From Lentisphaerae bacterium GWF2_49_21 (GTDB lineage Bacteria; Verrucomicrobiota; Lentisphaeria; Victivallales; GWF2-50-93), in contig MHBH01000054.1 of NCBI GenBank assembly GCA_001804805.1, positions 1 through 64,000 on the forward strand: a stretch of DNA of 64,000 nucleotides, given 5' to 3'. The notes beneath the pieces were generated by a model. The model searched no databases, had not been told where the DNA came from, and saw only the letters and a program-made list of their open reading frames with translations. Below, in pieces: positions 5,423-48,396 of this stretch. A program made the position numbers and the translations under genes. The stretch's first letter is position 1, and each line of letters begins with the position of its first letter.

Positions 5423-5981
5423 AAGTTCGGAAGTTCGGGAATGCGAAAGTTCGAAAGTTTAAAACAAATAAAAATATGGATAATAGAGAATTTAAATTAA
5501 GCTTGGAAAAGCGTACTAAGGCTTTTGCAATTGCTATTGTTCAGTTCTGCATATACCTGCGAAAACTGAATCTTCCGGAAGCTTTAATAAACCAGCTGCT
5601 GAAGGCTGGAACAGCGATAGGATCTAATTATCGCGAGGCGAACAGGGCTGAGTCGAAAAAAGATTTTATCCACAAGATCGGCATAGTTGAAAAAGAAGCA
5701 TCTGAAACAGAATTCTGGCTGGAAGTAATAGATGAAAGCCGCATCCTTGACAAGACTGCATCGGAGGAATTGACTCCTCTTTTGAAGGAATCAAAGGAAC
5801 TCCTGGCTTTATTCACATCAATATCGAAAAACAGCAAAAGGAAGGAAGAAGTTCGTGAGTTCGAAAGTGCGTAAGTGCGGAAGTTTCAATAATCAAACTC
5901 TTGAACTATAGACTCTACAGCTTTCGCGTTTTTTATTTATAACTTTCGCATTTTCAAACTCCCGAACTTTCGAACTTAATT
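5423..5981 (+). mobile_element. Intervening element 1: four-helix-bundle gene in inverted AAGTTCGA arrays
   Basis: The element starts on the base after the pseB stop and ends on the base before the pseC ATG. The left array (5423-5460) is a run of AAGTTCGG/AAGTTCGA/AATGCGA-type units. The right array (5941-5977) is the same motif inverted. 5423-5440 and 5960-5977 can pair over 18 bases with one G-U. More forward units at 5849-5887 make a second, local hairpin with the right array. The payload is the gene at 5476-5874. The architecture matches rRNA intervening sequences (long stem, ORF in the loop), but here it sits in a biosynthetic operon. See also 45548-46076 and 47931-48396. Confidence 0.75.
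5476..5874 (+). CDS. Four-helix-bundle protein (23S rRNA IVS/S23 family), copy 1
   Basis: A 132-residue protein starting MDNREFKLSLEKRTKAF. The family core GTAIGSNYREANRAES...HKIGIVEKEASET..WLE is intact. These all-helical proteins are encoded inside 23S rRNA intervening sequences of Leptospira and others and are structurally related to the Avd protein of diversity-generating retroelements; their biochemical role is unknown. The frame stays open well upstream into pseB, but homology begins at this ATG, so this start was chosen. The last residues (VREFESA) are encoded by the repeat array itself. About 88% identical to the copy at 45617. Confidence 0.88.
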   Translation: MDNREFKLSLEKRTKAFAIAIVQFCIYLRKLNLPEALINQLLKAGTAIGSNYREANRAESKKDFIHKIGIVEKEASETEFWLEVIDESRILDKTASEELTPLLKESKELLALFTSISKNSKRKEEVREFESA

Positions 5982-7106
5982 ATGATTCCCTACGGCAGAC
6001 AATCCATCGACCAGTCGGACATCGACGCGGTCGTCGAAGTCCTCAAGTCAGACTTCATCACCACCGGTCCGAAGATCGCCGAATTCGAACAGGCGGTCTG
6101 CGCCTTCACAGGTGCGAAATTCGCAGTTGCCGTCTCCAGCGGTACTGCCGCCCTTCATTGCGCGATGTTCGCAGCAGGAATAAAACCGGGAGACGAGGTG
6201 ATTGTCACTCCTATGACTTTCGCCGCCTCTTCGAACGCAATACTGTATTGCGGCGGGACACCGGTTTTTGCGGATGTCATTCCCGGCACTCTTCTTATAG
6301 ATCCTGCGCAGGTCGCCAGGAAGATCACAGGGAATACGAAGGCCGTGGTTGCGGTGGACTACGCCGGACAGCCATGTGATTACGACGCGCTCAAGGACAT
6401 ATGCTCGAAACACGGCCTTGTCCTCATATCCGACGCCTGCCATTCCATGGGAGGCGGATACAAGGGCAGAAAAGTCGGAACGCTGGCTGACATGACGGTC
6501 CTCAGCTTCCATCCTGTCAAGCATATTACGACCGGAGAAGGAGGGATGATACTCACCGACAACGCCGATTTCGCCGGAAAGATGAGGATGTTCAGGGGCC
6601 ATGGCATAACGACCGACTACCGCCAGCGCGAGGAGAAGGGTTCATGGTTCTATGAGATGGTCGACCTCGGCTACAATTACAGGATCACTGATTTCCAGTG
6701 CGCCCTCGGGATCAGCCAGCTGAAAAAACTGCCTGGCTGGATTGAAAGAAGACAACAGATAGCTGAAGAATACGACAGCGCCTTCAAGAGCAATTCTTCA
6801 ATAGTTCCAATCTCCAAATCACCAGAGGTCTCCCATGCGTACCATCTTTACGTTGTCAGGATTGAAAAGGCCGGCAGGAATAATATTTTCACGAGACTCA
6901 GGAATGCCGGAATCGGCGTCAACGTCCATTACATCCCAGTACACCTGCACCCCTACTACAGGAACAAGCTTGGCACAGGAGAGGGGCTTTGCCCGGTCGC
7001 AGAAGAAGCATACGGACACATCATTTCCCTCCCGATTTTCCCGGGAATTGGAGACAAGGATATCAAACACATAGTAGAAACTATAAAACAGGAAGTGGAG
7101 CTATGA
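5982..7106 (+). CDS. pseC: UDP-4-amino-4,6-dideoxy-N-acetyl-beta-L-altrosamine transaminase, PseC
   Basis: A 374-residue DegT/DnrJ/EryC1/StrS aminotransferase. The PLP lysine is Lys180 in FHPVKHITTGEGG, a form typical of PseC; the SSGTAALH phosphate-binding loop is also present. It converts the 4-keto product of PseB to the 4-amino sugar. No Shine-Dalgarno is visible because the sequence before the ATG is the right arm of the intervening element. The stop overlaps the next start (ATGA). It contains one GCGAANTTCGC palindrome at 6114-6124. Confidence 0.95.
   Translation: MIPYGRQSIDQSDIDAVVEVLKSDFITTGPKIAEFEQAVCAFTGAKFAVAVSSGTAALHCAMFAAGIKPGDEVIVTPMTFAASSNAILYCGGTPVFADVIPGTLLIDPAQVARKITGNTKAVVAVDYAGQPCDYDALKDICSKHGLVLISDACHSMGGGYKGRKVGTLADMTVLSFHPVKHITTGEGGMILTDNADFAGKMRMFRGHGITTDYRQREEKGSWFYEMVDLGYNYRITDFQCALGISQLKKLPGWIERRQQIAEEYDSAFKSNSSIVPISKSPEVSHAYHLYVVRIEKAGRNNIFTRLRNAGIGVNVHYIPVHLHPYYRNKLGTGEGLCPVAEEAYGHIISLPIFPGIGDKDIKHIVETIKQEVEL
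6114..6124. repeat. GCGAANTTCGC palindrome, site 1
   Basis: GCGAAATTCGC inside pseC, read in frame as GAKFAV. First of nine copies of this 11-mer in the window. Confidence 0.7.
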
Positions 7107-7720
7107 CCTACAAGACGGAACAGGAAAAATTCTGGGCGGGTAATTTCGGCATGGACTATATAGATCGCAACAAGGGTGAAGAATGGGTTGCCAGCAACAT
7201 CGCACTGTTCTCGAAAATCCTAGAAAGGACAAGATCTGTTTCTTCGGTCCTTGAACTTGGTGCGAACATAGGGTTGAACCTGCAGGCAATCCACAGCCTC
7301 CTGCCCAATGCCTCGATTACTGCAGTGGAAATAAACAAGGAGGCCGTAAAGGAACTGCGCAACTTCGACTACATAAATGCCAGACACTCCTCAATCCTTG
7401 ATTTTAAACCATCAGGGAAATGGGATCTTGCCTTCACCAAAGGAGTGCTGATCCATTTAAATCCCGATGTCCTTCCTGAAACATACGATCTGCTCTACAA
7501 GGCAAGCAGACGATACATTCTGGTCTGCGAATATTACAACCCCTCGCCGGTGGAGATTACATACCGTGGGCACAGCGGGCGTCTTTTCAAACGCGACTTT
7601 GCCGGTGAAATTCTTGAACGGCATGGTGATCTCACCCTGGTGGACTACGGCTTCTCATATCACAGGGATCCCAACTTCCCGCAAGGCGACATCTCCTGGT
7701 TTCTCATGGAAAAATCATGA
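7103..7720 (+). CDS. Pseudaminic acid biosynthesis-associated methylase
   Basis: A 205-residue class I SAM-dependent methyltransferase-like protein. The nucleotide-binding motif VLELGANIGLNL is at about residues 47-58, and the TEQEKFWAGNFGMDYIDRN N terminus is characteristic of the small methylase family found within pseudaminic acid operons. The substrate is not established for this family. It overlaps the pseC stop and the pseF start by 4 bases at each end, so translation is probably coupled. An in-frame start farther upstream is open but would overlap pseC heavily; the ATG at 7103 gives the family's normal length. Confidence 0.88.
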   Translation: MTYKTEQEKFWAGNFGMDYIDRNKGEEWVASNIALFSKILERTRSVSSVLELGANIGLNLQAIHSLLPNASITAVEINKEAVKELRNFDYINARHSSILDFKPSGKWDLAFTKGVLIHLNPDVLPETYDLLYKASRRYILVCEYYNPSPVEITYRGHSGRLFKRDFAGEILERHGDLTLVDYGFSYHRDPNFPQGDISWFLMEKS

Positions 7721-8442
7721 ACGGCAAAACTGGCAACCAAAACACCTCGAATATTGCAATAATCCCCGCAAGGGGAGGAAGCAAGCGAATTCCAGGGAAA
7801 AATAAAAAGGTCTTCTGCGGGAAGCCTATGATTTCCTATTCCATTGCGGCGGCAAAGGCTTCCGGGATATTCAATAGGATAATTGTCACTACGGACTCAC
7901 AGGACATAGCCTCCATGGCCACAGGATATGGTGCCGAAGTTCCTTTCATGCGGCCGCCGGAACTTTCCGACGACCATGCCAGCACTGATGCCGTAGTACT
8001 GCATTCCCTAGACTGGATCAATGCAAACTGGGGCCAGGCCGACTATATCTGCTGCATTTATTCCACGGCACCTTTTGTAAGACCCGAATATCTGAAGGCT
8101 GGACTGGAAATTCTCGTTCGGGAAAAAGCCACATCCGCATTTTCTGTCACATCCTTCCCCTACCCGATTTTCAGGGCGTTGAAAATTGAAACCGACGGCA
8201 GGCTCAAGATGTTCTGGCCGGAGCACCGTATGACACGTTCACAGGATCTTTCCGAGGCATACCATGATGCTGGACAGTTCTACTGGGCGGACGCCAGGAA
8301 ATATGCAGCGGAACGAAAGCTCTTTTCGTCCGATGCCGTACCAGTTGTGCTGCCCCGCAAGCTGGTCCAGGACATCGACACTCCGGAAGACTGGGAACGG
8401 GCCGAAGCAATGTACAAGGTCCTTTTCGGACAGGAAAAATGA
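7717..8442 (+). CDS. pseF: Pseudaminic acid cytidylyltransferase, PseF
   Basis: A 241-residue CMP-sugar synthetase. The N-terminal CTP-binding signature IIPARGGSKRIPGKN is complete, as are the later EVPFMRPPELSDD and CCIYSTAPFV segments. It activates pseudaminic acid as CMP-Pse, the last step of the pathway. Position between the methylase and PseG/H, with 4-base overlaps on both sides, supports PseF rather than a sialic acid enzyme. A second cytidylyltransferase lies at 18948. Confidence 0.93.
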   Translation: MNGKTGNQNTSNIAIIPARGGSKRIPGKNKKVFCGKPMISYSIAAAKASGIFNRIIVTTDSQDIASMATGYGAEVPFMRPPELSDDHASTDAVVLHSLDWINANWGQADYICCIYSTAPFVRPEYLKAGLEILVREKATSAFSVTSFPYPIFRALKIETDGRLKMFWPEHRMTRSQDLSEAYHDAGQFYWADARKYAAERKLFSSDAVPVVLPRKLVQDIDTPEDWERAEAMYKVLFGQEK

Positions 8443-9956
8443 AAAAAACGCGCGCATCGAAAAAAACAGCAATTGTCATCCGCGCCGACGCATCGGTCAG
8501 GACCGGCACAGGACATGTCATGCGCTGCCTTGCATTGACTCAGGCTCTTGCCAATGCCGGGAAGAATGTCGTTTTAGCGATGGCGGAATGTCCTGAAGCG
8601 CTGACCAGGAAGATAAAGTCCAGCGGCATGTCAACCCAGAAGATAAAGTCCAGGCCCGGAAGCCTGAAGGACGCCGAGGAAACTGCAAAGTTCGCAGCAA
8701 GGAAGAATGCTACATGGGTAGTTGTCGACGGATATATCTTCTCCGACAAGTACCAGGACGCCCTCAAGAAGGCTGGGCTGCGGTTACTGTTCATTGATGA
8801 CTTCGGCCACTGTCCCAGCTATCCATCGGACATAATCCTCAATCAGAACCTTTATGCCGGCACGCATTTCTATCCAGAGACGGCGCCGTTCACCAGGATA
8901 CTTCTCGGAACGCAGTATGTCCTCCTGCGCAATGAGTTTTCACCATATTCCAATTGGAGGAGGCAGGTTCCAGAGAAGGCATCGAAGCTGCTGGTCACGC
9001 TAGGAGGAAGCGATCCGGACAACACTACTCTTAAGATAATAAGAGGGATCAAAGCCTCGAAACTGGGACTGGAGGTCAAGATCGTCGCTGGAGGCGCCAA
9101 TCCTCATCTGAAATCCTTGGAAAAGGAAATCAAAAAATCTCCAAATCTCCAGATTCTTAAAAATGTCTCCAACATGCCTGAGCTGATGGCATGGGCTGAT
9201 ATCGTGATCACCAGCGGCGGAAGCACATGCTGGGAGACATGCTTCATGGGCCTGCCTAACATCATCATATACTGCGCGGACAACCAGAAGCCTATAGCGC
9301 TCAGTCTTGATGAAGCCGGAGCCGCTATCAATCTCGGCCAAAACAGCGAGCTTGTGGAGAAGAAGTTCATCTCAACTCTGAAATCCCTGGCAAACGACTT
9401 CGAAGCCCGCAGCAGGATGTCAGAGAAAGGCCGCCTGCTCGTGGATGGCAGGGGCGCAGACAGGATTATCTACGCGATGGGCGGCCTTTTCCTGAGGAAG
9501 GCGTCTAAGGACGACTGCAAGTTCATATGGGAGCTTTCAAATTCCAAGCCGGTGCGCGATGTCTCCTTCACCAGGGATCCGATTCCATGGGATCATCACA
9601 AGGGGTGGTTTGACAGGACGCTCGCCGACAAGAACTGCTTTTTTTGCATAGCTGAGACAGCCGGAGGAAAACCTGCAGGACAGGTTAGGTTCAGGATGAA
9701 CGGCCCTGATGCTGTGATATCCACCAGCCTTGCGCTAGAGTTCAGAGGGAAGGGATATGGGAGCATACTCATATTCGAGGCGTCAAACGCGCTTTTCAGC
9801 AGCACCGGGGTAAAGACCGTGCATGCCTATATCAAGAATGAGAACAAGGGTTCCTTGAAGTCGTTCCAGAAGGCCGGATTCAGGCAGACGGATCTCGACA
9901 GGTTCGCGCTGGAAAAGGAATCACTGCACCTTATAATGGAGAAACCTGCGGAATGA
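8439..9956 (+). CDS. pseG: PseG-PseH fusion: UDP-sugar hydrolase plus N-acetyltransferase
   Basis: A 505-residue bifunctional protein. Residues 1 to about 340 are PseG, a GT-B-like UDP-sugar hydrolase: IRADASVRTGTGHVMRCLAL near the N terminus and TSGGSTCWETCFMGLP near residue 265. Residues from about 345 to the end are a GNAT domain (LRKASKDDCKFIWELSNSK, then FRGKGYGSILIFEA as the acetyl-CoA loop) corresponding to PseH. The protein would 4-N-acetylate the amino sugar and then release UDP. The two activities are separate proteins in Helicobacter and Campylobacter. A lysine-rich N-terminal extension precedes the core. It overlaps both neighbours by 4 bases. Confidence 0.93.
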   Translation: MKKTRASKKTAIVIRADASVRTGTGHVMRCLALTQALANAGKNVVLAMAECPEALTRKIKSSGMSTQKIKSRPGSLKDAEETAKFAARKNATWVVVDGYIFSDKYQDALKKAGLRLLFIDDFGHCPSYPSDIILNQNLYAGTHFYPETAPFTRILLGTQYVLLRNEFSPYSNWRRQVPEKASKLLVTLGGSDPDNTTLKIIRGIKASKLGLEVKIVAGGANPHLKSLEKEIKKSPNLQILKNVSNMPELMAWADIVITSGGSTCWETCFMGLPNIIIYCADNQKPIALSLDEAGAAINLGQNSELVEKKFISTLKSLANDFEARSRMSEKGRLLVDGRGADRIIYAMGGLFLRKASKDDCKFIWELSNSKPVRDVSFTRDPIPWDHHKGWFDRTLADKNCFFCIAETAGGKPAGQVRFRMNGPDAVISTSLALEFRGKGYGSILIFEASNALFSSTGVKTVHAYIKNENKGSLKSFQKAGFRQTDLDRFALEKESLHLIMEKPAE

Positions 9957-11002
9957 GCTGCTGCATAAAAATCGGCAGGCGCGTGATCGGCTCCGGCCAT
10001 CCCGCCTACATCATCGCGGAAATATCCGCGAACCATGGGCATAAGTTCGAGAAGGCCGTCGAGATCATCGGGGCCGCAAAGGATGCCGGCGCAGATGCCG
10101 TGAAGCTCCAGACCTACACTCCTGACACCATCACTATCGACTGTGACAACGAATATTTCATGATTAAGGGGACCATTTGGAAGGGAAAGAACCTCTATAA
10201 GCTATATGGTGAGGCGTATACCCCATGGGAATGGCAGCCTAAACTCAAGAAGATCGCCGATAAGCTGAAAATAGATCTATTCTCGACGCCATTTGATCCC
10301 GCTTCAGTAGATTTCCTCAGGAAAATGAATGTTCCTGCATTCAAGGTCGCTTCTTTCGAACTCGTCGACATCCCCCTGATCAGGAAGATAGCCCGGGCCG
10401 GCAAGCCGGTAATCATGTCTACAGGGATGGCGACCATGCCCGAGATCTGCGACGCGGTGAAGGCTGCCAGAGCGGAAGGAAACAACCAGCTTGCGCTTTT
10501 GAAATGCACCAGCGAATATCCTGCGGATCCCAACGACATGAATCTCAGGACAATCCCTGACATGAAAAGGAAATTCGGTACAGTTGTCGGGCTTTCCGAC
10601 CACACCCTCGGAATAGCCGCATCGGTTGCGGCAGTGACGCTGGGTGCAAATATTATCGAGAAGCATGTGACCCTTTCCAGGAAGGAGCCTGGCCCTGACA
10701 GTTCGTTCTCGCTGGAGCCTTCGGAGCTGGAGGAGCTCGTGAAGGAGATCAGGACAGCCGAATCAGCTCTTGGGAAAGTGAGCTATACTTTCACCAGCAA
10801 GGAGAAAGCGACAAGGATATTCAGACGTTCGCTATTCGTTATAAAGGATATTGGCAAGGGAGAGCCTTTCACCGGCGAGAATGTAAGGTCCATAAGGCCA
10901 GGACATGGACTGCCTCCAAAATATTTTGACATGGTCATCGGCAGGAAGGCATCCTGCTCCATATCCCGAGGCACACCGTTAAGTAGAAAGATGATAGGGT
11001 AA
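9953..11002 (+). CDS. pseI: Pseudaminic acid synthase, PseI
   Basis: A 349-residue NeuB-family enzyme that condenses the trideoxy hexose with phosphoenolpyruvate. The TIM-barrel part carries IIAEISANHGHKFEKA, FSTPFDP, KVASFELVDIPLI and GLSDHTLG, with IIEKH downstream; the C-terminal 65 residues are the SAF antifreeze-like domain (GENVRSIRPGHGLPPKY). The SFEL and GYGE/GEAYTPWEWQ region fits PseI more than sialic acid synthase, as does its place directly behind PseG-H. It completes the pathway in this window. Confidence 0.94.
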   Translation: MSCCIKIGRRVIGSGHPAYIIAEISANHGHKFEKAVEIIGAAKDAGADAVKLQTYTPDTITIDCDNEYFMIKGTIWKGKNLYKLYGEAYTPWEWQPKLKKIADKLKIDLFSTPFDPASVDFLRKMNVPAFKVASFELVDIPLIRKIARAGKPVIMSTGMATMPEICDAVKAARAEGNNQLALLKCTSEYPADPNDMNLRTIPDMKRKFGTVVGLSDHTLGIAASVAAVTLGANIIEKHVTLSRKEPGPDSSFSLEPSELEELVKEIRTAESALGKVSYTFTSKEKATRIFRRSLFVIKDIGKGEPFTGENVRSIRPGHGLPPKYFDMVIGRKASCSISRGTPLSRKMIG

Positions 11003-11005
11003 AAA

Positions 11006-11941
11006 ATGATAGAAATTGTAAACGACTACAAGAAGGCTTCCTTTGGGGGTTCCATCAAGAATGCGATTTCCTTTTCTTCTAAGCTTGGGGAGATGGCGAT
11101 GCGTGTAAGCAGGAACAAGCTTGATGCAAGATACGATTCCCAGATCAGGAAGCACATCGAAAAGATGAATTCCGGGAAATTCCGTATTTTCCGCCATATA
11201 TACATCGAAACCATCAACAGGTGCAACGGGGGATGCAGGTTCTGCCATGCAAACAGATTTACCGACAAGAGGGAAATGGAGCTGATGGACGAGGGTCTGC
11301 TGGAAAAGATCCTCAAGGAACTGAAGGAAATGGAATTCAAGGGCTGGATCTCGTTCCACAGGAACAACGAACCTTTCCTCGACAAGAGAATTTTTGATTT
11401 TGTAAAAATGATGCGGGAGTCAATGCCAGATGCATTGATAAACATCCATTCAAACGGGACTCTGCTCAACATCGAAAAGATATATAGGATCATGCCACAT
11501 CTTTCATTCCTCAACATCAACAATTACAATGACAAGCTCGAGCTTCATGACAACATCAGGGAGACCGTAGAGCACTTCAACAGGACAAATGAATTTGACG
11601 GCCTGATAAAGGTCTGCCTCAGGAAAGAAAATGAAATTCTCCTTAACAGGGCTTCTTCCGCCCCCAACAGGAAAATGGGATATACCATGAAATCTCCATG
11701 CCTGTATCCGTTTGAACAGTTGAATGTCTGCTCCAATGGGAATATTTCCATCTGCTGCAACGATGCGTTCGAGGATGTTGTTCTCGGGAATGCAGGAGAA
11801 CAGACGCTTGAAGAGATCTGGCACGGCGAAAAGTTCAAGGATATAAGGGATAAGATGCTGATGGACAGGAACTTGATAAAAATATGCGGAAAATGCGACA
11901 TAATAACTCCGCCGACCAGGAATCCCAATGAGAACGACTGA
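11006..11941 (+). CDS. Radical SAM protein with SPASM-like C terminus
   Basis: A 311-residue radical SAM enzyme. The 4Fe-4S cluster cysteines are C73-x3-C77-x2-C80 (CNGGCRFC). A C-terminal set of cysteines (CLYP..., ICCNDAF, CGKCD) should hold an auxiliary cluster, as in SPASM proteins. It begins 3 bases after pseI, suggesting cotranscription, and overlaps the next gene by 14 bases. Members of this type in glycan loci may modify sugars or lipid-linked intermediates, but the substrate cannot be deduced. Confidence 0.88.
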   Translation: MIEIVNDYKKASFGGSIKNAISFSSKLGEMAMRVSRNKLDARYDSQIRKHIEKMNSGKFRIFRHIYIETINRCNGGCRFCHANRFTDKREMELMDEGLLEKILKELKEMEFKGWISFHRNNEPFLDKRIFDFVKMMRESMPDALINIHSNGTLLNIEKIYRIMPHLSFLNINNYNDKLELHDNIRETVEHFNRTNEFDGLIKVCLRKENEILLNRASSAPNRKMGYTMKSPCLYPFEQLNVCSNGNISICCNDAFEDVVLGNAGEQTLEEIWHGEKFKDIRDKMLMDRNLIKICGKCDIITPPTRNPNEND

Positions 11942-14945: not shown

Positions 14946-14972
14946 AATTAACTTATCACAGAACTTATAATC

Positions 14973-16661: not shown

Positions 16662-16663
16662 AG

Positions 16664-17890: not shown

Positions 17891-17906
17891 GCCCACAGGA
17901 GGACAT

Positions 17907-18905: not shown

Positions 18906-18947
18906 CGCATCGTATAAAACACCTCAGCATTTGACGTCCGTTATATT

Positions 18948-20548: not shown

Positions 20549-20576
20549 TTCAAAGTCCCAAGGAAAGGATATTTCT

Positions 20577-23289: not shown

Positions 23290-23290
23290 A

Positions 23291-24166: not shown

Positions 24167-24168
24167 AC

Positions 24169-25224: not shown

Positions 25225-25244
25225 ATAACAAGGAGCTCTCTATT

Positions 25245-26336: not shown

Positions 26337-26343
26337 CATTATC

Positions 26344-27054: not shown

Positions 27055-27064
27055 GCAAGTCTTG

Positions 27065-27964: not shown

Positions 27965-27987
27965 TTGATCATATAGGAGAACAGAAA

Positions 27988-29661: not shown

Positions 29662-29667
29662 GATCAC

Positions 29668-31538: not shown

Positions 31539-31552
31539 AAGGGATGGCTGCA

Positions 31553-32653: not shown

Positions 32654-32673
32654 TATTTTCCAGCCACAATCAA

Positions 32674-34287: not shown

Positions 34288-34296
34288 CGAACCGGA

Positions 34297-35781: not shown

Positions 35782-35801
35782 GGCAGATCAGGAATTTAAA
35801 A

Positions 35802-38337: not shown

Positions 38338-38355
38338 ACCAAAGGAAACCTGAAT

Positions 38356-39336: not shown

Positions 39337-39535
39337 ACGATACGCGAGCAAAAGCGATAAGTTATTTCTTAGACTCTCTTCCCTTGAAAGCGAATATGCT
39401 AAAGAACTGCTTTGTGAGCTTCAAAGCGTGCATTCAAAATCCATTGCTGTACTTCCTGATAGACATGCTGGGGGGAGCGAACATTTAAAGGAGGATTTAT
39501 GTGAAATCCTCAAAAAACAGTTCATTAACTCATGA
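39326..39535 (+). pseudogene. Possible C-terminal gene remnant
   Basis: A frame without ATG is open for 69 codons between two stops, reading LFLRLSSLESEYAKELLCEL and ending ILKKQFINS. It has a protein-like composition but no recognised family and no start codon, so it may be the tail of a gene destroyed when the neighbouring transposase element arrived. It could equally be chance. Confidence 0.25.
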
Positions 39536-39642
39536 AAATTACAGTCCCATGGGGACGACAAGATAATAGGCAGGCGTTTTAACGCCTGTATAAATGACAA
39601 CAAATAATTCGCATGCCGTCAGGTATGCGATGAATATAAAAA
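39337..39642. other. Intergenic region before the transposase
   Basis: Holds the possible gene remnant (to 39535), the left 28-bp terminal repeat (39562-39589) and a second hairpin (39610-39629) that precedes the transposase start. Nothing else was recognised. Confidence 0.5.
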
Positions 39643-40171
39643 ATGTCCAATAGTTATATTTCAATTTATATCCACGCGGTTTTCAGCACTAAAAATCATG
39701 AACCATTCCTGACATCAGAAATAAGGAACCGTCTTTTCCCATATTTTTGTGGAATTGCAAAATCAAATGATTTTCTCCTTCTTAATGCTGGAGGAATAGA
39801 AAACCATTTACATCTCCTTGTCTCGCTCCGTCAAGACATGGGAACATCCAAGGCTCTTCAGCTTTTGAAAGGTGGCAGTTCAAAATGGATTCATGACACT
39901 TTTCCTAACATGAAGAACTTTGCCTGGCAGGAGGGATATGGTGCATTCAGCATCGGAGTATCGCAGATCAAGGCGACCGAGGACTATATAGCCAAACAGG
40001 AACAACATCACAGGAAATTATCCTTTAGAGAAGAATATCTGGCATTCCTCAAAAAACACAATATTAAATACGATGACAAATATGTTTTTGGATGACATTC
40101 ACCGCATACCTATGGCATGCGTCTTTTGTATGCACGATTGCAAACAGGCGTTAAAACGCCTGCCTATTATC
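39562..40171 (+). mobile_element. REP-bounded Y1 transposase element with perfect 28-bp inverted ends
   Basis: 39562-39589 and 40144-40171 are perfect 28-base inverted repeats beginning GATAATAGGCAGGCG, each itself a hairpin (CAGGCGTT...AACGCCTG). Inside them lie a second pair of related hairpins at 39610-39629 and 40103-40121 (CGCAT-GCC...GG-TATGCG), also in inverted order. The Y1 transposase gene fills the centre. This matches the known REP-rayT-inverted REP layout. The right end stops 29 bases before the next glycan gene. Confidence 0.85.
39643..40095 (+). CDS. IS200-like Y1 transposase
   Basis: A 150-residue HUH transposase. IHAVFSTKNHEPFL starts the fold, NHLHLLVSL is the HUH motif, FAWQEGYGAFSIG is family-typical, and the catalytic tyrosine lies in EDYIAKQEQHH. 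These enzymes cut and rejoin single-stranded DNA at hairpins. It is shorter than, and of a different subgroup from, the RAYT at the left edge. It appears intact. The flanking perfect inverted repeats suggest the element settled recently or is maintained. Confidence 0.92.
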   Translation: MSNSYISIYIHAVFSTKNHEPFLTSEIRNRLFPYFCGIAKSNDFLLLNAGGIENHLHLLVSLRQDMGTSKALQLLKGGSSKWIHDTFPNMKNFAWQEGYGAFSIGVSQIKATEDYIAKQEQHHRKLSFREEYLAFLKKHNIKYDDKYVFG

Positions 40172-40200
40172 AAACCATCCCTCTGGGATTTATAATTAAA

Positions 40201-41280: not shown

Positions 41281-41283
41281 CAA

Positions 41284-42162
41284 ATGACTGGAAAACTCAT
41301 AATTGCATTCATAGCTCTTCTGGCAGATTTAACCTTATCCGCGGAGCTGCCCGCCACGGCTTCCTCCGGCAAGGTCAAAGTTGCAGCAATTCAATGTTAT
41401 AGCCGGATGGGGCAGGTCGAATACAACCGGAAATTGCTGACAGGCCTAATGACTTCCGCCTCGGAAAAGGGGGCGAAAATAATTGTGACTCCGGAATGCG
41501 CTGTACAGGGATACATGGATCCTGCAGGCGGCGTGGCTTGGACGAAACAGGAGAAAAAGGCGGAAGACCGCATGTCCGTAGGAGAATATGCTGAAACTGT
41601 TCCCGGACCGTCGACGGAATATTTCGCCTCTCTCAGCAAAAAGCTTGGAGTCTACCTCTGCATCGGAATGATTGAAAAAGACAAGAAGTCTTTCTTCAAC
41701 TCCCAAGTCCTCCTAAGCCCTGAAGGCAAAATAATCGCCCATCACAGGAAGAAGAACCTGTGGCCGCCCGGTGACGGGCTCTGGGCATCTGAAGGTGATC
41801 TGCCAGTGCAGATTGTCCAGACCGAATTTGGAAAGCTTGGCCTCCTGATCTGCTATGAAATCCATCTTCTGCCCAAAAAATTAGCCGAGGGCAAGACGGA
41901 CATCGCTCTCTATTCCGTAGGCTGGTATGGGCCGAACGAGGACAACTGGTTCTTCATCATCCTTCCCAGGGATTATGTCAAGCCATACGGATATTCTATT
42001 GTGGTTTCAAACTGGTCTGCGGATAAATCATCTGAAGGCTGGGTCGGGATTGGAAGGAGCTGCATAATCAACAGTGACGGAAAACTCCTCTCGTCAGCTG
42101 AAAAGGACAAGGGTGAGGAGATTGTTATTTCGGAGCTGAACTTGAAATCATCCCCAAAATGA
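41284..42162 (+). CDS. Secreted carbon-nitrogen hydrolase (nitrilase superfamily)
   Basis: A 292-residue nitrilase-fold amidase with a signal peptide (LIIAFIALLADLTLSA, about residues 5-20). The catalytic triad is visible as Glu71 (VTPECAV), Lys156 or 157 (HHRKKNLW) and Cys190 (LLICYEI). It would hydrolyse an amide or carbamoyl group outside the cytoplasm. In a locus with four amidotransferase-like genes and a carbamoyltransferase, an exported amidase that trims the glycan is possible but inferred. Starts 3 bases after the previous gene. Confidence 0.88.
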   Translation: MTGKLIIAFIALLADLTLSAELPATASSGKVKVAAIQCYSRMGQVEYNRKLLTGLMTSASEKGAKIIVTPECAVQGYMDPAGGVAWTKQEKKAEDRMSVGEYAETVPGPSTEYFASLSKKLGVYLCIGMIEKDKKSFFNSQVLLSPEGKIIAHHRKKNLWPPGDGLWASEGDLPVQIVQTEFGKLGLLICYEIHLLPKKLAEGKTDIALYSVGWYGPNEDNWFFIILPRDYVKPYGYSIVVSNWSADKSSEGWVGIGRSCIINSDGKLLSSAEKDKGEEIVISELNLKSSPK

Positions 42163-42177
42163 GAGTTGCCACTGCAG

Positions 42178-42588
42178 ATGAAAGGCATATACATCCTGGT
42201 AGTTAATTTGCAGAATGATTCCAAAATAAGGATCGGTTCAATGGGCATCATTCCCTTCCGCAAGGGCACTTATGCATACGTCGGTTCTGCCATGGGAGGA
42301 CTTGAGGCAAGGATAAGAAGACATCTGAGAACCAGGAAAAAGCTCCACTGGCATATCGATTATCTTCTGAAAAGGGCCGTAGTGATGAAAGTCCTTGTGA
42401 AGGGGACATCGTCAAAGTCTGAAGAATGCAGGACTGCCGGACTACTCCAGTCCTTCGGAGCAGCGGCTGTTGAAGATTTCGGATCTTCCGACTGCAAATG
42501 CGCAAGCCATCTCTTTTATTTCAATTCAATTCCTGAACTTCAAATTTCAAACTTTACAAAACATGAAAATCCTGCTTGCATGCAGTAA
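42178..42588 (+). CDS. GIY-YIG-like (DUF123) protein
   Basis: A 136-residue protein. GIYILVVNL and YAYVGSAMGGLEARIRRHL give the GIY...YVG core, and KKLHWHIDYLL is the DUF123 follow-on. This subgroup is known from proteins linked to endonuclease III and is predicted to act on DNA. It is out of place among sugar enzymes. The ATG at 42178 is preferred to a TTG 12 bases earlier. Its end overlaps the next gene by 26 bases. Confidence 0.85.
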   Translation: MKGIYILVVNLQNDSKIRIGSMGIIPFRKGTYAYVGSAMGGLEARIRRHLRTRKKLHWHIDYLLKRAVVMKVLVKGTSSKSEECRTAGLLQSFGAAAVEDFGSSDCKCASHLFYFNSIPELQISNFTKHENPACMQ

Positions 42589-43765
42589 ATATCTGCCGGA
42601 ATATTCAGGCGCCGGATACCGGGCCCACAACCTCTACAGGAGGCTTAAGGCAGTCAATCCTGACATCAGCCTGACGGTCGTCTGCAGTTCTGAAACTGAA
42701 AATGACTGCAGAAAATACGAGTATGATGGAATTGATGTGAACAGAATCGCCTGCAAGCAGTATCCAGTGCTTGACCATGGATTCATCAGACGGTGGCAGA
42801 ACTTATGCAATTTCCATTGTGAAAGCTCGGAGGCAAGTAAGTTCCTGATGGGGCTCGGCGCAAAACCTGATCTTATCCATGTATTTGGACAGAGCTATGT
42901 GACGGTCACGGTAATTGATCATGCCATAAGAAACAGAATACCTCTGATAATTGAGCTGGTCACGGATCTGGAGAGCCCCTTCCAGTATGTACCGTTCCCG
43001 TTGAAATATTTTCTGAAGACGAGGCCGGTGGATAATTTTACATTCGTCTGCATATCTGAGAAGCTGAAAACTCTTTGCCTGTCAAACGGGATCAGCGATA
43101 CTAACATCTGGTGCAGGCCGAATCCCGTCGACGAAAATAAATTCAAATCTGTCTCCCCCGAGGTGAAATGCGAACTTCGCAGGAATCTCACTAAATTCAC
43201 AGGCAATGACAAGCTTATAAGCTACATAGCGAAATTCCGTCCCAGCAAGAACCAGAAGTTCCTGGTTGAGGTCATGAAACATCTTCCGGAATCATTCAAG
43301 CTCTTCATCAAGGGGCCGCTCGTAAAGGAAGGCCCTTTTGCAGAGCGGGACAACAGATATTTCAATGAAACAAGAGAATCAGTGGAACACCTCGGGCTTT
43401 CCAACAGGATACAGGTGGAAGAAGGCTTCTGCGAAAATCCAGAGGGATACTACCAGATGTCCGATATATATGCGTTCCCTTCTGTCTCCGAGGGGCTTGG
43501 CACCCCGGTGCTGGAAAGCCTTGCCTGTGGAGTCCCCGTCGTGGCGAACAATATTCCGAAAGTGACGGATGTCTGGATAAAAGAAGGAAGAAATGGATAT
43601 CTGAGCCAATTGGAGGAAATTGAATTCTCCCATAAGATCATTAAGGCGGTAAAAATAGCAAAGGATGCCCTGCTCGAAGAATCCAAGTCCCTCATGTCTG
43701 AGGCATCAACAGAAATTATCGACAATAAATACATACAAACAATAAAAAGGCTGGCCAAGTCCTGA
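42563..43765 (+). CDS. Group 1 (GT4-like) glycosyltransferase
   Basis: A 400-residue GT-B glycosyltransferase. The N terminus ILLACSKYLPEYSGAGYRAHNL holds the acceptor-side glycine-rich loop; CRPNPVDENKF, ISYIAKFRPSKNQKFL and FPSVSEGLGTPVLESLACGVPVV (the E-x7-E donor motif) mark the second domain. It probably adds one sugar to the lipid-linked chain on the cytoplasmic face. The ATG lies inside the end of the preceding gene. A palindrome copy is at 43170-43180. Confidence 0.92.
   Translation: MKILLACSKYLPEYSGAGYRAHNLYRRLKAVNPDISLTVVCSSETENDCRKYEYDGIDVNRIACKQYPVLDHGFIRRWQNLCNFHCESSEASKFLMGLGAKPDLIHVFGQSYVTVTVIDHAIRNRIPLIIELVTDLESPFQYVPFPLKYFLKTRPVDNFTFVCISEKLKTLCLSNGISDTNIWCRPNPVDENKFKSVSPEVKCELRRNLTKFTGNDKLISYIAKFRPSKNQKFLVEVMKHLPESFKLFIKGPLVKEGPFAERDNRYFNETRESVEHLGLSNRIQVEEGFCENPEGYYQMSDIYAFPSVSEGLGTPVLESLACGVPVVANNIPKVTDVWIKEGRNGYLSQLEEIEFSHKIIKAVKIAKDALLEESKSLMSEASTEIIDNKYIQTIKRLAKS
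43170..43180. repeat. GCGAANTTCGC palindrome, site 6
   Basis: GCGAACTTCGC in the glycosyltransferase gene, read as CELR. Confidence 0.7.
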
Positions 43766-43771
43766 CACCCC

Positions 43772-45547
43772 ATGAATCTTATAAAATACTTCTCGTTTTT
43801 CCTTTCTCTGACAAAAAATAAATTCCTGGTCTTCATAGGTTTTATCTTCACAGCGGCCTTCATGGAACTCATAGCAGGCGGTGTTTTCCTGGCTGTGCTT
43901 GAATTTGAATCTGCAAAACGCGGGAACAACTTCCTGACCAGGACCGTATATTCCATATTGTCCTCGATGCACCTTCCTTCAAAGGAATATGAACTATGTG
44001 CGCTTCTGGCCACGTGCTGCATTGCATTTGCAATTGGAGCATCGGTAATGATCTACTCCAACTGGTTCAGCGCAAAACTGGAGGCCCGCATTTTTATGGA
44101 GCTTCAGGAGGACATGGTTATAAGGCTCTTCGGTGCAAAATTCGAATATTTCATATCAAAAAACATCGGTAATCTCAACAACATCATCGTACACCAGATA
44201 TTCAAGGTGAGTTCTTCCTTCAAGTCCTTTGCAAATATCCTGTCAAATGCCACACTTGCTTCGGCATATCTTGTATATCCTTTGGTACTGGAACCAATAC
44301 TGCCAGTTCTGATGTTTGTGATGACCCTGCCTCTTCTTTTTGCGTTCAGGCACATAAACAGCAAGACAAAATATTATTCCATAAGGAACACGGAGGAGCT
44401 CGGGAAACTCTATGGCATCATCTATCAGATACTCGCCCATTTCAAATATCTCAAAGCCACTGCGAATTACCGGAAAATAGTCAGCAAGCTCCGCGAACAG
44501 AATCTCGGACTGACCTATGTCATGCGCATGCAATCGCTCTGGGGCGCCATAAGTTCCGACGGTTTCAGGCCTGTAGTCATAACTGAAATCTTCATCATTG
44601 TAATATACATGGTCGTTTTCAAGCACCACAGGATCGATTATGTCATCGTCCTGATGGCATTCCTCTACATGGCCTATCAGAAAGTCATTTCAATTCAGGG
44701 AGCCTATCAATCATTCCTTGTATCATCCGGAGCCATACTCGTATATGAGAAAATGAAGTCCGAGCTTTTTGAATCCGATGAAACAAAACTTCTTCCTGGC
44801 AGCGATATGCCGGTATTTACAGGCCCCATAACATTTGAAAATGTGACTTTCCGGTTTGAAAGCAAGGATGAGCCTGTCCTAAAAAACATGAGCCTTGAAA
44901 TAAAGCCCAATACCACCGTTGCTTTTGTAGGCGGTTCCGGAGCCGGCAAATCAACCCTGGTGAACCTCATATGCGGACTCCTGTTTCCTCAAACAGGTTC
45001 CATGAAGATTTCTGGCAAGGATTATAAGACCCTGGATGTTTCCAGGCTCCGTGAATCAATTGGTTATGTAACACAGGAACCGGTAATATTCAATGACACA
45101 GTCTTAAACAACATAACACTGTGGGATAAATCATTCTCGGACAGCATAGTCAGCGTCTCAAAAAGGGCGTCAGCGGATGAGTTTATTGAACAGCTACCCC
45201 AGAAATATGATACTCTTCTCGGTGACAACGGTATTAATATTTCAGGTGGCCAGCGCCAGAGGATAACTATCGCCAGGGAACTTTCCCGTAATACTCCAAT
45301 CCTTATTTTCGACGAGGCCACCAGCTCCTTGGACACCGAGACTGAAAGAAAAATACAGGAAAGCATAGACCAGTCACATGGAGAAAAGACAATAATCATA
45401 ATCGCCCACAGGCTGTCAACCATCAAAAATTCAGACATGGTTTATCTTCTAGAAAACGGGGAAATCATAGAAAAGGGGCCTTACACCGAACTTTATGAAA
45501 AAAATGGCAGGTTCCGCCAGATGGTTGACAGTCAGTCCCTAAGCTGA
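43772..45547 (+). CDS. ABC transporter, fused membrane and ATPase domains (flippase-like)
   Basis: A 591-residue half-transporter. About 330 residues of membrane domain with several hydrophobic helices precede the ATPase domain: Walker A FVGGSGAGKSTLVNL (Lys393), signature NISGGQRQRITIARE and Walker B ILIFDEATSSLD. The MsbA/PglK type of exporter flips lipid-linked sugars or oligosaccharides across the inner membrane; no Wzx or Wzy is seen in the window, so this is the best candidate for export. Its stop is followed at once by intervening element 2. Confidence 0.92.
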   Translation: MNLIKYFSFFLSLTKNKFLVFIGFIFTAAFMELIAGGVFLAVLEFESAKRGNNFLTRTVYSILSSMHLPSKEYELCALLATCCIAFAIGASVMIYSNWFSAKLEARIFMELQEDMVIRLFGAKFEYFISKNIGNLNNIIVHQIFKVSSSFKSFANILSNATLASAYLVYPLVLEPILPVLMFVMTLPLLFAFRHINSKTKYYSIRNTEELGKLYGIIYQILAHFKYLKATANYRKIVSKLREQNLGLTYVMRMQSLWGAISSDGFRPVVITEIFIIVIYMVVFKHHRIDYVIVLMAFLYMAYQKVISIQGAYQSFLVSSGAILVYEKMKSELFESDETKLLPGSDMPVFTGPITFENVTFRFESKDEPVLKNMSLEIKPNTTVAFVGGSGAGKSTLVNLICGLLFPQTGSMKISGKDYKTLDVSRLRESIGYVTQEPVIFNDTVLNNITLWDKSFSDSIVSVSKRASADEFIEQLPQKYDTLLGDNGINISGGQRQRITIARELSRNTPILIFDEATSSLDTETERKIQESIDQSHGEKTIIIIAHRLSTIKNSDMVYLLENGEIIEKGPYTELYEKNGRFRQMVDSQSLS

Positions 45548-46076
45548 AAGTGCGGAAGTTCGGGAATGCGGAAGTTCGGGAGTTAGTAATAAAATAATGG
45601 TGGATTTGACAAAAACATGGATAATCGGGAATTTAAGTTAAGATTGGAAAAGCGTACAAAGGCTTTTGCAATCGCTGTCGTACGATTCTGCATATATCTG
45701 CGCAAACTGAATCTTCCTGAAGCCTTAATAATACAACTCTTGAAGGCTGGAACAGCGATTGGATCAAATTACCGCGAGGCAAACAGGGCAGAATCGAAAA
45801 GCGATTTTATCCACAAGATCGGGATAGTTGAGAAAGAAGCATCTGAAACGGAATACTGGCTTGAGGTAATTGACGAAAGCCATATCCTTGACAAGCATGC
45901 TTCGGATCAGTTGATTCCATTAATAAAGGAATCAAAAGAATTATTATCATTATTCACATCAATATCAAAAACCAGCAAAAAGAGATAAGAAGTGCAGAAG
46001 TTGCAATTTCCAATATTTCGAATTTAAATTACAACTTTCGCATTTTCGAACTCGCGAACTTTAGAACTTCTATATC
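45548..46076 (+). mobile_element. Intervening element 2: four-helix-bundle gene in inverted AAGTTCGG arrays
   Basis: It fills exactly the gap between the ABC transporter stop and the ATG of the first asparagine synthase. The left array 45548-45585 consists of AAGTGCGG, AAGTTCGGG, AATGCGG and AAGTTCGGG units. The right array 46033-46069 is inverted, and 34 of its 37 bases match the right array of element 1 (5941-5977). Left and right arrays can pair imperfectly. The payload is the gene at 45617-45988. No target-site duplication is obvious. Confidence 0.75.
45617..45988 (+). CDS. Four-helix-bundle protein (23S rRNA IVS/S23 family), copy 2
   Basis: A 123-residue protein starting MDNREFKLRLEKRTKAF. 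It differs from the copy at 5476 at about 15 of 123 positions, while roughly 30 codons differ silently (counted by eye), so the protein has been held by selection since the copies parted. The GTAIGSNYREANRAES core and HKIGIVEKEASET segment are unchanged. Function unknown; no Shine-Dalgarno is visible. Confidence 0.88.
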   Translation: MDNREFKLRLEKRTKAFAIAVVRFCIYLRKLNLPEALIIQLLKAGTAIGSNYREANRAESKSDFIHKIGIVEKEASETEYWLEVIDESHILDKHASDQLIPLIKESKELLSLFTSISKTSKKR

Positions 46077-47930
46077 ATGTGCGGTTTCGTTGGAATAATT
46101 TCAAAGAAGAAAAGCCGGTTCCCCGAGAACAAACTCAGGGAAATGACAGGCATGATAACACATCGCGGCCCTGACGATGAGGGTTTCTTCTTCCATGAAG
46201 ACTGGCTCGCGCTGGGTTTCCGCAGGCTGAGCATCATAGATCTGAGCTCCAAGGGACACCAGCCGATGATCTCCCATGACGGCCGTCACGTCATAGTGTT
46301 CAACGGCGAAATCTACAACTACTGCGAAATCCGCAATGAGCTTGAAAAGGAGAATTATCCCTTCCAGTCGCATACCGACACCGAGGTCATACTTGCTGCA
46401 TATCGGAAATGGGGCACGCAATGCATGTCTAAATTCATTGGAATGTTTGCATTCATTATCGCTGATCTCAAGGAGAAAACCGTTTTCCTATCCAGAGATC
46501 AGCTCGGTATCAAGCCTCTTTTCCATTACGAGGATGCTGACAACCATGTCTTCTGCAGCGAGATAAAATCACTCCTTCCGTATTGCAGCCTTGAACCAAA
46601 TCTGAACTCAGTCAACGAATACCTTGTCTTCAGGTCAGTCGTTGGAAAGAATACCCTGTTCAAAAATGTGTTCAGCCTCGAAGCAGGCCATTTTATGGAG
46701 TACAAGGATGGATGTTTTTCCGAAAAGGAATATTTTAATCTATCTGGGACGTTCAAGCCTGACTATTCAAAATCATTTGAAGAAGCCTGCACCGAAGTTG
46801 AAAAGAGCCTTGAGGAAAGTGTAAGGCTCCATCTAAGAAGCGACGTTGAACTTGGTGTACAGCTCAGCGGGGGCGTCGATTCAAGCCTGATCGCTGCGAT
46901 GGCGTCCCGGCAGGTCAGAAAAAAGTTCCATACCTTCTCCATCTCTTTCAAGGAATCATCTTATGATGAGTCTGAATATCAGAAACGAGTGTCCTCAAGA
47001 TATAACACGGAACATCACGATTTCCCGATGGGTGAAGGTGATTTCACAGATCTTCTCATGAAATCGTTATGGTATTTTGAACATCCGATCAACGATCCAA
47101 ATTCAGTATGCACGTATTTCCTGGCGGAAAAGGCCAGGAAATACATAACTGTCATGCTAGCCGGAGAAGGCGCCGATGAGTCCTTCCTCGGATATTCAAG
47201 ATTTCTTCCTTCGTCGATAAGGACACTCAGGACAAGGTCATTCCTGCATAGGAATCCGGCAATCCGCGAAATCTTGTTCAAACTCACAGGAAAGAGCATA
47301 TTCAATATAACCCGGTATAATCCGGCAATGTATGTCCTTTCCTACTCGGATCTCAACCTGACTGACAAGCTCCTGAAAGGCGACGATTCATCTTTTACTG
47401 GAAGATTGAAGGCAATTGAGGAGGCAGGAGGAGATGTCTTGAATGAAGCGCTTCTCCAGGATCAGGATTGCGATCTTGCGCAATGGTTCTGGCGCGCGGA
47501 CAGGATGGGGATGGCGGCCTCAATGGAGCTCAGAGTCCCGTTCTGCACTGTTCCCATGTTCAGGCTTGCCAACTCAATACCCTATGAAATGCGAGTGTTC
47601 AATGGGGAGAGGAAGGCCGTATTGAAGAAAGTGGCGGAAAAATATATCGACAACGACCAGATATACAGGAAGAAAATCGGATTCGGAACGCCAATCGACG
47701 TCTGGTTGAACCGGGAAGGTCCTTATAGCAGGCTGTATTCAGCAACAGTTGAATCCAACAGCTTTAGATCCCGTTCCTTTATTGATCAAAGCCACTTCAA
47801 CCATATTTATTCCTCCCATAAAAACGGTTCATACCGGGAAGTCAACAGCGGATATCTCTGGACATATTTCAACTTAGAACTCTGGCACCGGATCTTCTTC
47901 GAGGATGGATGGAAGAGTTTGTGTATTTAA
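46077..47930 (+). CDS. asnB: Asparagine synthase-like amidotransferase (glutamine-hydrolysing), copy 1
   Basis: A 617-residue class II amidotransferase. The nucleophilic Cys2 (MCGFVGIIS) and RGPDDEG/NGEIYN segments form the glutaminase domain; the synthase domain has the PP-loop SGGVDS at residues 264-269. Such genes in polysaccharide loci often amidate sugar carboxylates rather than make asparagine. Two more AsnB-like genes follow almost directly and a fourth lies at 56653. The ATG immediately follows the right arm of element 2. Confidence 0.92.
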   Translation: MCGFVGIISKKKSRFPENKLREMTGMITHRGPDDEGFFFHEDWLALGFRRLSIIDLSSKGHQPMISHDGRHVIVFNGEIYNYCEIRNELEKENYPFQSHTDTEVILAAYRKWGTQCMSKFIGMFAFIIADLKEKTVFLSRDQLGIKPLFHYEDADNHVFCSEIKSLLPYCSLEPNLNSVNEYLVFRSVVGKNTLFKNVFSLEAGHFMEYKDGCFSEKEYFNLSGTFKPDYSKSFEEACTEVEKSLEESVRLHLRSDVELGVQLSGGVDSSLIAAMASRQVRKKFHTFSISFKESSYDESEYQKRVSSRYNTEHHDFPMGEGDFTDLLMKSLWYFEHPINDPNSVCTYFLAEKARKYITVMLAGEGADESFLGYSRFLPSSIRTLRTRSFLHRNPAIREILFKLTGKSIFNITRYNPAMYVLSYSDLNLTDKLLKGDDSSFTGRLKAIEEAGGDVLNEALLQDQDCDLAQWFWRADRMGMAASMELRVPFCTVPMFRLANSIPYEMRVFNGERKAVLKKVAEKYIDNDQIYRKKIGFGTPIDVWLNREGPYSRLYSATVESNSFRSRSFIDQSHFNHIYSSHKNGSYREVNSGYLWTYFNLELWHRIFFEDGWKSLCI

Positions 47931-48396
47931 AAATTAGAATTTAGAAAACAACCAATTAAGAAAAGGAGGAGAGATAGCATGATAGGATCCTCAAAGAAAG
48001 CTGATCTTGAAAGAAGAACAAAATTATTCTCAATTAATCTTATTAAGTTTATTTCCGTCCTCCCTCGCTCCAATATTAATGATGTCCTTTCATATCAGCT
48101 ACTGAAATCTGGAACTTCCATCGGGGCAAACTATCGTGAAGCTAATCGAGCCGAATCGAAAGACGATTTCAAACATAAAATTGGAATTGTCCAGAAACAA
48201 TCTTCAGAAACCCAATATTGGCTTGAACTGATGGACGAAACAGATTTGTTCGACAGATTCCAATTCCTGCCCTTGTTGAAGGAATCCTCCGAACTTCTTG
48301 CAATATTTACTTCAATAGGCAAAAAATTAAACTGTGGTACTGTACTTTAGAATTAATGTTTTCTAATTTCTAAATTCTACTTTCTAAATTGAAATC
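47931..48396 (+). mobile_element. Intervening element 3: four-helix-bundle gene in inverted AATTTAGA arrays
   Basis: It fills exactly the gap between the stop of the first and the ATG of the second asparagine-synthase gene. Left array 47931-47950 (AATTAGA and ATTTAGA units) and right array 48357-48390 (inverted AATTTAGA units) are complementary: TAGAATTTAGAA at 47935-47946 pairs perfectly with 48368-48379, and AGAAAACA at 47943-47950 matches 48357-48364. The unit differs in sequence from elements 1 and 2 but keeps the pattern AA-N-TT-N-GA. The payload is the gene at 47979-48350. Confidence 0.7.
47979..48350 (+). CDS. Four-helix-bundle protein (23S rRNA IVS/S23 family), copy 3
   Basis: A 123-residue divergent member starting MIGSSKKADLERRTKLFS. 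It keeps the family core GTSIGANYREANRAESKDDF and HKIGIVQKQSSET..WLE, but elsewhere differs greatly from copies 1 and 2. Unlike those, it has a strong ribosome site (AAGGAGG, 47963-47969), so it is probably translated on its own merit. Function unknown. Confidence 0.87.
   Translation: MIGSSKKADLERRTKLFSINLIKFISVLPRSNINDVLSYQLLKSGTSIGANYREANRAESKDDFKHKIGIVQKQSSETQYWLELMDETDLFDRFQFLPLLKESSELLAIFTSIGKKLNCGTVL

Follow-up and report, generated by a model that had tools for sequence, protein, structure and literature searches.

The stretch analysed here, called the window throughout, comprises 64,000 nucleotides of the genome of Lentisphaerae bacterium GWF2_49_21 (contig MHBH01000054.1, positions 1 to 64,000; draft assembly of 91 contigs). 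It carries three elements, numbered 1 to 3, each made of a single S23/IVP gene flanked by inverted arrays of 7-8-nt units and each occupying the whole stop-to-start gap that separates two same-strand genes. Elements of this kind are real, widespread and mobile, and their anatomy is closest to that of the intervening sequences (IVS) of rRNA, without the location by which the latter are defined. We consider it likely that they are transposase-free mobile elements of operon junctions, akin to the rRNA IVS, whose arms pair in RNA.

When compared with protein family models, the three open reading frames (ORFs) scored 58.6, 58.5 and 58.0 bits against PF05635 (cut-off 33.8) and 74.6, 72.1 and 73.7 against TIGR02436 (cut-off 24). 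For each element, the score of the flanking inverted arms was reached by 0 of 200 dinucleotide shuffles. These results bear out the initial annotation, which had described three genes of the S23/IVS family, each between inverted arrays, in operon gaps. The unit of about 8 nt that it had given for all three was recovered in elements 1 and 2; that of element 3 has 7 nt (TTTCTAA) and an unrelated sequence. Similarly, the left array begins at or just after the upstream stop, as described, in elements 1 and 2, and overlaps the stop codon in element 3. The right arrays stop 4, 6 and 6 nt ahead of the next ATG, within the range of about 3-7 bases that had been indicated.

The arms of element 1 (5423-5471 and 5929-5977) are 80% complementary and are the longest among the inverted pairs reported with arms at most 2.5 kb apart; the 3' end of its S23 gene enters a copy of the array in direct orientation (5848-5884). 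From position 45548, the left array of element 2 consists of 1.9 exact copies of a 16-nt double unit, and the arms of element 3 (47925-47947 and 48367-48389) are 91% complementary. No transposase is encoded, the sole listed ORF of at least 90 aa within each element being that of S23, and an Rfam scan of the window gave no match.

Unrelated, occupied and empty junctions

By comparison of genome sequences, it was shown that a block consisting of S23 and its borders occurs at unrelated junctions, may be present or absent at one and the same junction in related species, and leaves S23-less and broken derivatives. Elements 1 and 2 (80.7% DNA identity, unrelated flanks) are, judged by their sequences, two copies of one element. 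They form one of four pairs in which homology at different junctions is confined to the element. The other three are the element of G000:C61 and that of the pseB|pseC junction of G001 (80.4%), the sdhA|sdhB element of L145 and the gmk|nadD element of L181 (74%), and the element of L139, beside a thiolase gene, and that of L178 (81.8%, over a stretch that begins at the S23 ATG and extends about 50 nt beyond its stop; of the flanks of L178, the upstream one alone was comparable). The mobility of the element is well supported, and these pairs show that it moves as a unit.

In G001, a genome of the same genus, all three window junctions are occupied, two of them by different elements and the third by an orthologous element, which is accompanied there by an additional gene and a truncated copy. 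In the G001 locus L058 (7140-9120), the gene that is absent from window junction 3 sits between two elements with TTTAGAA units; in the first of these, beside the asparagine-synthase gene, most of S23 is gone and both arms, by eye, are retained. The arrangement looks as if recombination between like elements had added or removed the intervening gene. Alignment of G000:C15 with its G001 counterpart gave blocks mostly of 93-97% identity and one block, running into the element, of 84%; the intervening S23 genes are about 63% identical and the array unit is different.

The sdhA|sdhB junction was followed in Flavobacteriaceae, where 60 genomes were searched and the 30 closest to the query (best-scoring, not random) were read. 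The gap from stop to ATG was at most 20 nt in 21 of these 30 genomes. An S23 element of 437-447 nt was present in three, one of which is the query's own genome (L184 and L258 being the genomes of the queries), and six had other content, including four short array-like inserts. The inserts of L260, L266, L273 and L275 had an array-only look by eye, failed the arm test and were left uncounted; L281 contains an ORF without S23 similarity. Five further filled junctions of the sdhA|sdhB type, one being the query locus, came from the survey of 80 loci described below. The view of S23 as a fixed host gene of the operon was rejected on account of the empty sites.

At the NdpA junction of Flavobacterium, 50 of 60 matching genomes were taken (best-scoring, not random) and 48 were readable, L214 and L229 having no NdpA match in the slice. 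An S23 element or remnant was present in 22 of the 48, and others held S23-less palindromes or short gaps. Inverted arms without S23 were seen in 11 of 56 cases, two of which are a CTCTCC-type repeat. Remnants of S23 occur in L131, L208, L211 and L212, and significant arms are retained beside a broken S23 in L208, L212, L217 and L131, that is, in four of the seven broken or remnant elements of this junction. Three species (L198, L199 and L201) have a palindromic repeat of another kind (CCCTCTCC...GGAGAGGG) at this junction.

In a tree of 89 S23 proteins, the rows of the NdpA junction formed one clade of 24 (96/88), with row L217 excluded as a wrong ORF. The clade splits into two moderately supported subclades (87/69 and 92/83), and the arm types CAAAG and CTAAG follow these subclades in 22 of the 24 elements, L141 and L124 carrying one arm of each type. 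On the tree of the NdpA gene itself (23 full-sequence rows; L222 and L217 were excluded as short slices), six subclade switches were counted (bootstrap 5-7), two of which are forced by strongly supported branches alone, and one pair of sister species (94/96) carries opposite S23 subclades. Furthermore, S23 identity was compared with NdpA identity over 253 pairs, giving a Spearman coefficient of 0.11 (p 0.09). Since S23 identity does not track NdpA identity and the subclades switch, the lineage of elements tied to this junction seems to have been passed between species separately from the adjacent gene; the data suggest an exchange of elements that is independent of the neighbour.

The S23 genes are under purifying selection (median dN/dS of 0.137 over 82 pairs), and the protein therefore works for something. 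Such selection would agree with a domesticated operon regulator, S23 and the hairpin being host features that tune the expression of the downstream gene, as would the occupation of one junction in many species and the sense orientation reported below. We regard this explanation as quite improbable: sdhA|sdhB is empty in most of the relatives read, the gene pairs concerned (pseB|pseC, sdhA|sdhB, gmk|nadD, ArgE/DapE-like|argH) are functionally unrelated, four elements of the NdpA junction combine a broken S23 with significant arms, and one junction can hold different elements in two species of a genus.

Arms, placement and folding of S23 elements

The survey of S23 genes, made with one genome per species, yielded at least 586 confirmed relatives, the best 80 of which were kept (the named loci). 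By record title, these belong to Bacteroidota, Nitrospirota, SAR324, KSB1, Desulfobacterota, Bacillota, Elusimicrobiota, Verrucomicrobiota, Lentisphaerota, Planctomycetota, Acidobacteriota, Spirochaetota, Fibrobacterota, Patescibacteria groups and Pseudomonadota. Significant inverted arms were found around S23 at 55 of the 80 loci and around only 4 of 118 other genes of the same loci (Fisher p about 2e-24). When loci were grouped into shared junctions by the similarity of their neighbours, 61 distinct junctions remained, 43 of them with at least one significant locus. A chance origin of the arms was rejected by the contrast between S23 and the other genes. More generally, that the elements are chance palindromes or an assembly artefact is hardly credible, even though the source genome is a 91-contig draft, in view of the shuffle tests, the recurrence in named isolates of several phyla and the existence of orthologous empty and filled sites.

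For the placement of the elements, junction neighbours and strands were inferred from ORF lengths and not from annotation. Among 45 codirectional loci with significant arms, the median distance was 3 nt from the upstream stop to the left arm and 7 nt from the right arm to the next called start. S23 was codirectional with both neighbours at 65 of 75 two-neighbour loci and never antisense between codirectional genes, while 51 of 89 control genes at the same loci were sense and 9 antisense (65:0 vs 51:9, Fisher p 0.001). In the source genome and its relatives (43 loci), 25 sense and 2 antisense cases (L002 and L023) were scored; the antisense call for L002 is doubtful, a + strand frame being visible by eye just downstream. 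Insertion may be aimed at junctions, or elements may survive only there; both would fit this placement. No rRNA match was found when 14 of the 80 named loci were scanned. In L108, from a KSB1 genome, two Acido-Lenti-1 RNA matches (3495-3540 and 4068-4113) lie near the S23 gene.

The match between the two arms was examined on 24 filled NdpA junctions, L217 being left out. The score between the arms of the same element was 15.9, compared with 10.7 between species, and it was reached by 0 of 10,000 permutations. Inside the two subclades, the observed score was reached by 221 and 8 of 10,000 permutations, respectively; part of the signal is a difference between subclades. Covariation shows that the pairing of the arms is maintained while their sequence changes. 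Correction of quasi-palindromes by template switching could keep the arms matched without selection.

In folds of minimum free energy (MFE), the arms close all three window elements (z of -4.6, -2.6 and -2.4). The MFE lay below the shuffled mean in every one of 47 elements, namely the three window elements and those of 44 named loci.

We propose that the element would be transcribed as part of the operon mRNA and that its arms would pair into a long closing stem, which would join the upstream stop with the downstream start. By analogy with the rRNA IVS of Coxiella, this stem would probably be cut by RNase III. Because of the stem and its probable cleavage, the insertion could be tolerated in essential operons, like the rRNA IVS in its own site. 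The S23 protein may serve the propagation of the element itself by binding the arms or the hairpin, and the strand chemistry may be supplied by host repair, replication or recombination.

Another partner for S23 might be a reverse transcriptase (RT). S23 and Avd, the accessory protein of diversity-generating retroelements (DGRs), are homologous according to the available text of PMC10053308, and the S23 of L118 matches the PHROG family 'Avd protein of DGR' at 4e-11. S23 could then act like Avd, with an RT encoded elsewhere in the genome. The source genome has four RVT_1 matches, all on contigs other than that of the window, and the sense-only orientation would fit an insertion at the RNA level. 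The PHROG search of the three window S23 proteins gave no match, and no RVT_1 match was present in 6 of 15 S23-carrying genomes, three of which hold 9, 9 and 11 S23 genes. For this reason an RT is not a general need, and its being required for the element was rejected; mobilisation by an RT acting elsewhere we judge unlikely. Solved relatives of S23 are 2RLD and 2GSC. PADLOC assigned no family to five S23 proteins, and a search of viral contigs with the S23 of element 2 returned no relative.

Arrays without S23 and the weighing of the evidence

The source genome contains 14 PF05635 matches, 10 of them above the cut-off. Significant inverted arms were present at 9 of these 14 S23 loci and at 15 of 29 in the relatives. 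Except in elements 1 and 2, the array unit differs from locus to locus in the source genome (for example GGTGTCR, GATACTT, AATGTCC and GGGGCGAGTGCGAG), and a single fixed repeat sequence as the mark of the element was rejected for this reason. Among 19 array loci of this genome, chosen from its best matches, those that could be judged by eye are intergenic and without S23; S23 is therefore not needed for an array to exist. When 460 kb of the source genome were scanned (twenty 20-kb stretches plus 60 kb from the window), 83 inverted pairs were found, compared with 1 in shuffles; 14 of the 83 had periodic arms, two of these being elements 1 and 3. The scan says nothing firm about other cargo, since it missed element 2 and five of the pairs enclose gaps of 878-2380 nt that may contain genes.

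Several loci showed further features. Longer S23-like proteins are encoded at L011, L012, L013 and L014 of the source genome. A 'four helix bundle suffix' model was matched by L013 and, below cut-off, by L011, which also has a weak resemblance to the C-terminal part of topoisomerase; the inverted arms of L013 are significant, and at L012 an array-like sequence seems by eye to enter the end of the ORF. At L038 (G025:C135), S23 matches recur within long open frames of 462 and 278 aa, and the inverted arrays are very long (arm score 74); this looks like a tandem duplication of S23 units. In addition, other GC-rich palindromic repeats were seen by eye in or beside arrays at L066, L068, L079, L089 and L004 of the source genome; they contain CGGCTTCGC or GCCGCGGC, or resemble CCTGCCCC...GTGGGG.

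Arrays of this kind might have come first, with slippage and template switching as the means by which those of the STRR type spread independently, and with S23 genes as passengers that settle inside inverted arrays, perhaps via recombination between like units. The source genome has more arrays with the units of S23 elements than it has S23 genes, inverted arms without S23 occur at the Flavobacterium NdpA junction, as counted above, and TAACTGA arrays, which were present in 10 of 198 Bacteroidota genomes, lie mostly without S23. The cyanobacterial STRR (PMC2670836) and the TAACTGA arrays of Beggiatoa (PMC4679880) are likewise presented without S23 in the available text of these papers. On the other hand, matched inverted arms surround most S23 genes of the survey and very few of their neighbours, the arm type mostly tracks the S23 subclade (22 of 24 elements, with L141 and L124 mixed), and the copies at unrelated junctions have both S23 and borders in common. 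We hold this order of events to be possible but somewhat unlikely.

Several observations weigh against a mobile element with paired arms, the reading that we prefer. Significant arms were not detected at 25 of the 80 named loci, at 5 of 14 loci of the source genome and at 14 of 29 in the relatives, nor in three of the seven broken or remnant elements of the NdpA junction. Antisense placement was scored at 2 of 43 loci. Two array patterns gave 50 and 94 hits in the source genome, compared with its 14 S23 matches (the reversed patterns of the same units gave 0); because overlapping registers are included, the distinct array places are fewer than 50 and 94. Twelve places with TAACTGA arrays were inspected in other Bacteroidota; 11 had no S23 within 1.5 kb, and a single place with S23 nearby is too few to claim a link. 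Neither a target-site duplication nor an excision product was found; at sdhA|sdhB, where the empty gaps are mostly 7-16 nt and the filled and empty sites come from different species, no duplication was visible by eye. Homologous recombination over short tracts could also account for the exchange at one junction, and strong support is present for only a few of its underlying branches. Finally, stop and start were only modestly closer to each other in the MFE folds of the 47 elements than in shuffles (median path 16 vs 23); since this test of fold distance is weak, we only infer that the stem bridges stop and start.

The proposal of the initial annotation was that these are intervening sequences of mRNA or else a mobile element aimed at junctions between translated genes. 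This proposal is supported by the same element at unrelated junctions and by the empty-site alleles of sdhA|sdhB, which answer its call for operons lacking the element. The inverted short arrays that it asked for at other S23 genes were found at 55 of the 80 loci, and the RNA fold that it suggested for element 1 has the arms closing the element. Its caveat that arrays unrelated to S23 would break the model applies in part: most S23 genes do have arms, and same-unit arrays are more numerous than S23 genes.

Known systems and features of the window

The closest known system is the rRNA IVS of Coxiella and Leptospira, in which a long terminal inverted repeat forms a loop that contains an S23 ORF of about 120 aa. 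Both features, terminal inverted repeats that close a stem and an S23 ORF in the loop, are found in the window elements. As described in the available text of PMC4990558, the 23S IVS of Coxiella has a 28-bp terminal stem, an S23 ORF preceded by two or three tandem heptamers ahead of its ATG, and is cut by RNase III in vitro. S23 ORFs in rRNA inserts are also described for bacteria of the candidate phyla radiation (CPR) in the part of PMC11270868 at hand, and the parts available of PMC10910872 and PMC11637426 contain mentions only. In contrast to the rRNA IVS, the window elements lie between protein genes of operons and match nothing in Rfam, their arms are locus-specific arrays of short units, and several copies occur per genome.

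Short intergenic arrays are already a known, unexplained phenomenon. In the accessible text of PMC2670836, the cyanobacterial STRR are intergenic 7-nt direct repeats that may form hairpins and whose function is unknown. In that of PMC4679880, the TAACTGA arrays of Beggiatoaceae lie mostly directly upstream of start codons, with no mechanism given and no mention of S23. The likeness to the arrays described here, which for STRR was drawn from the description only, is that of short direct repeats dispersed in intergenic regions. The differences are that the units here have 7-9 nt, are locus-specific and stand in inverted pairs, and that neither S23, nor a matched inverted pair around a gene, nor a mobile unit is reported for STRR or TAACTGA in these texts.

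With DGRs, the elements have a four-helix-bundle homologue of Avd in common; unlike DGRs, they have no RT on the contig of the window (no search for template and variable repeats was made). Similarly, insertion sequences (IS) and miniature inverted-repeat transposable elements (MITEs) have terminal inverted repeats, copies at unrelated sites, empty sites and gene-less derivatives. Unlike these, the elements have no transposase, no common terminal sequence and a nearly sense-only placement at gene junctions, and target duplication was not seen by eye at sdhA|sdhB. A search of the open-licence literature, which largely leaves out subscription journals, brought up no account of S23 elements located between operon genes.

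With more reserve, and at somewhat less than even confidence, we suggest that these bacterial mobile elements form a categorically new class that extends across many phyla. Such an element would be free of transposase and RT, encode one Avd-like protein, end in matched inverted arrays of any short unit and insert in sense where translation stops and restarts; the rRNA IVS would be its rRNA branch, and solo arrays such as STRR and TAACTGA its gene-less remains. Apart from this suggestion, the results give a place to a large orphan protein family that is annotated only as 'four helix bundle protein' or by its rRNA location, and they connect it with two old puzzles: the intervening sequences of rRNA and the short repeat arrays found between genes in cyanobacteria and other bacteria. 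If the preferred model of a transposase-free mobile element is correct, the operons of bacteria contain intervening sequences that can be removed, lie at gene junctions and move without any transposase; RNA processing as well as mobility could then be tested in ordinary laboratory strains.

Coordinates of the three elements and of the genes that flank them in the window
Feature	Position	Strand	Remarks
Junction 1 upstream gene, PseB (UDP-GlcNAc 4,6-dehydratase)	4412..5422	+	TIGR03589 above cut-off
Element 1 left arm	5423..5471	+	Array of 8-nt units (AAGTTCGG-like); begins directly after PseB-like stop
Element 1 S23/IVP four-helix-bundle gene	5476..5874	+	132 aa
Element 1 right arm	5929..5977	-	Inverted array; 4 nt short of next ATG (5982)
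Junction 1 downstream gene, PseC aminotransferase	5982..7106	+	TIGR03588 above cut-off
Junction 2 upstream gene, ABC transporter permease/ATPase	43772..45547	+	Many such families match, none above cut-off among the best 25
Element 2 left arm	45548..45581	+	Unit family of element 1; begins directly after ABC-transporter stop (45547)
Element 2 S23/IVP gene	45617..45988	+	123 aa
Element 2 right arm	46039..46070	-	6 nt short of next ATG (46077)
Gene between elements 2 and 3, asparagine synthase family	46077..47930	+	TIGR01536 above cut-off
Element 3 left arm	47925..47947	+	7-nt unit (ATTTAGA-like); overlaps asparagine-synthase stop codon (47928-47930)
Element 3 S23/IVP gene	47979..48350	+	123 aa
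Element 3 right arm	48357..48390	-	6 nt short of next ATG (48397)
Junction 3 downstream gene	48397..50250	+	617 aa; 31% identity to the G001 orthologue of the 46077-47930 gene

On account of the identity given in the table, the gene downstream of junction 3 is probably a distant relative of the asparagine-synthase family gene that precedes element 3. Elsewhere in the window (39545-40188), a transposase gene of the IS200/IS605 family (39643-40095) lies inside 45-nt inverted arms that contain a GGCGTTTTAACGCC hairpin.

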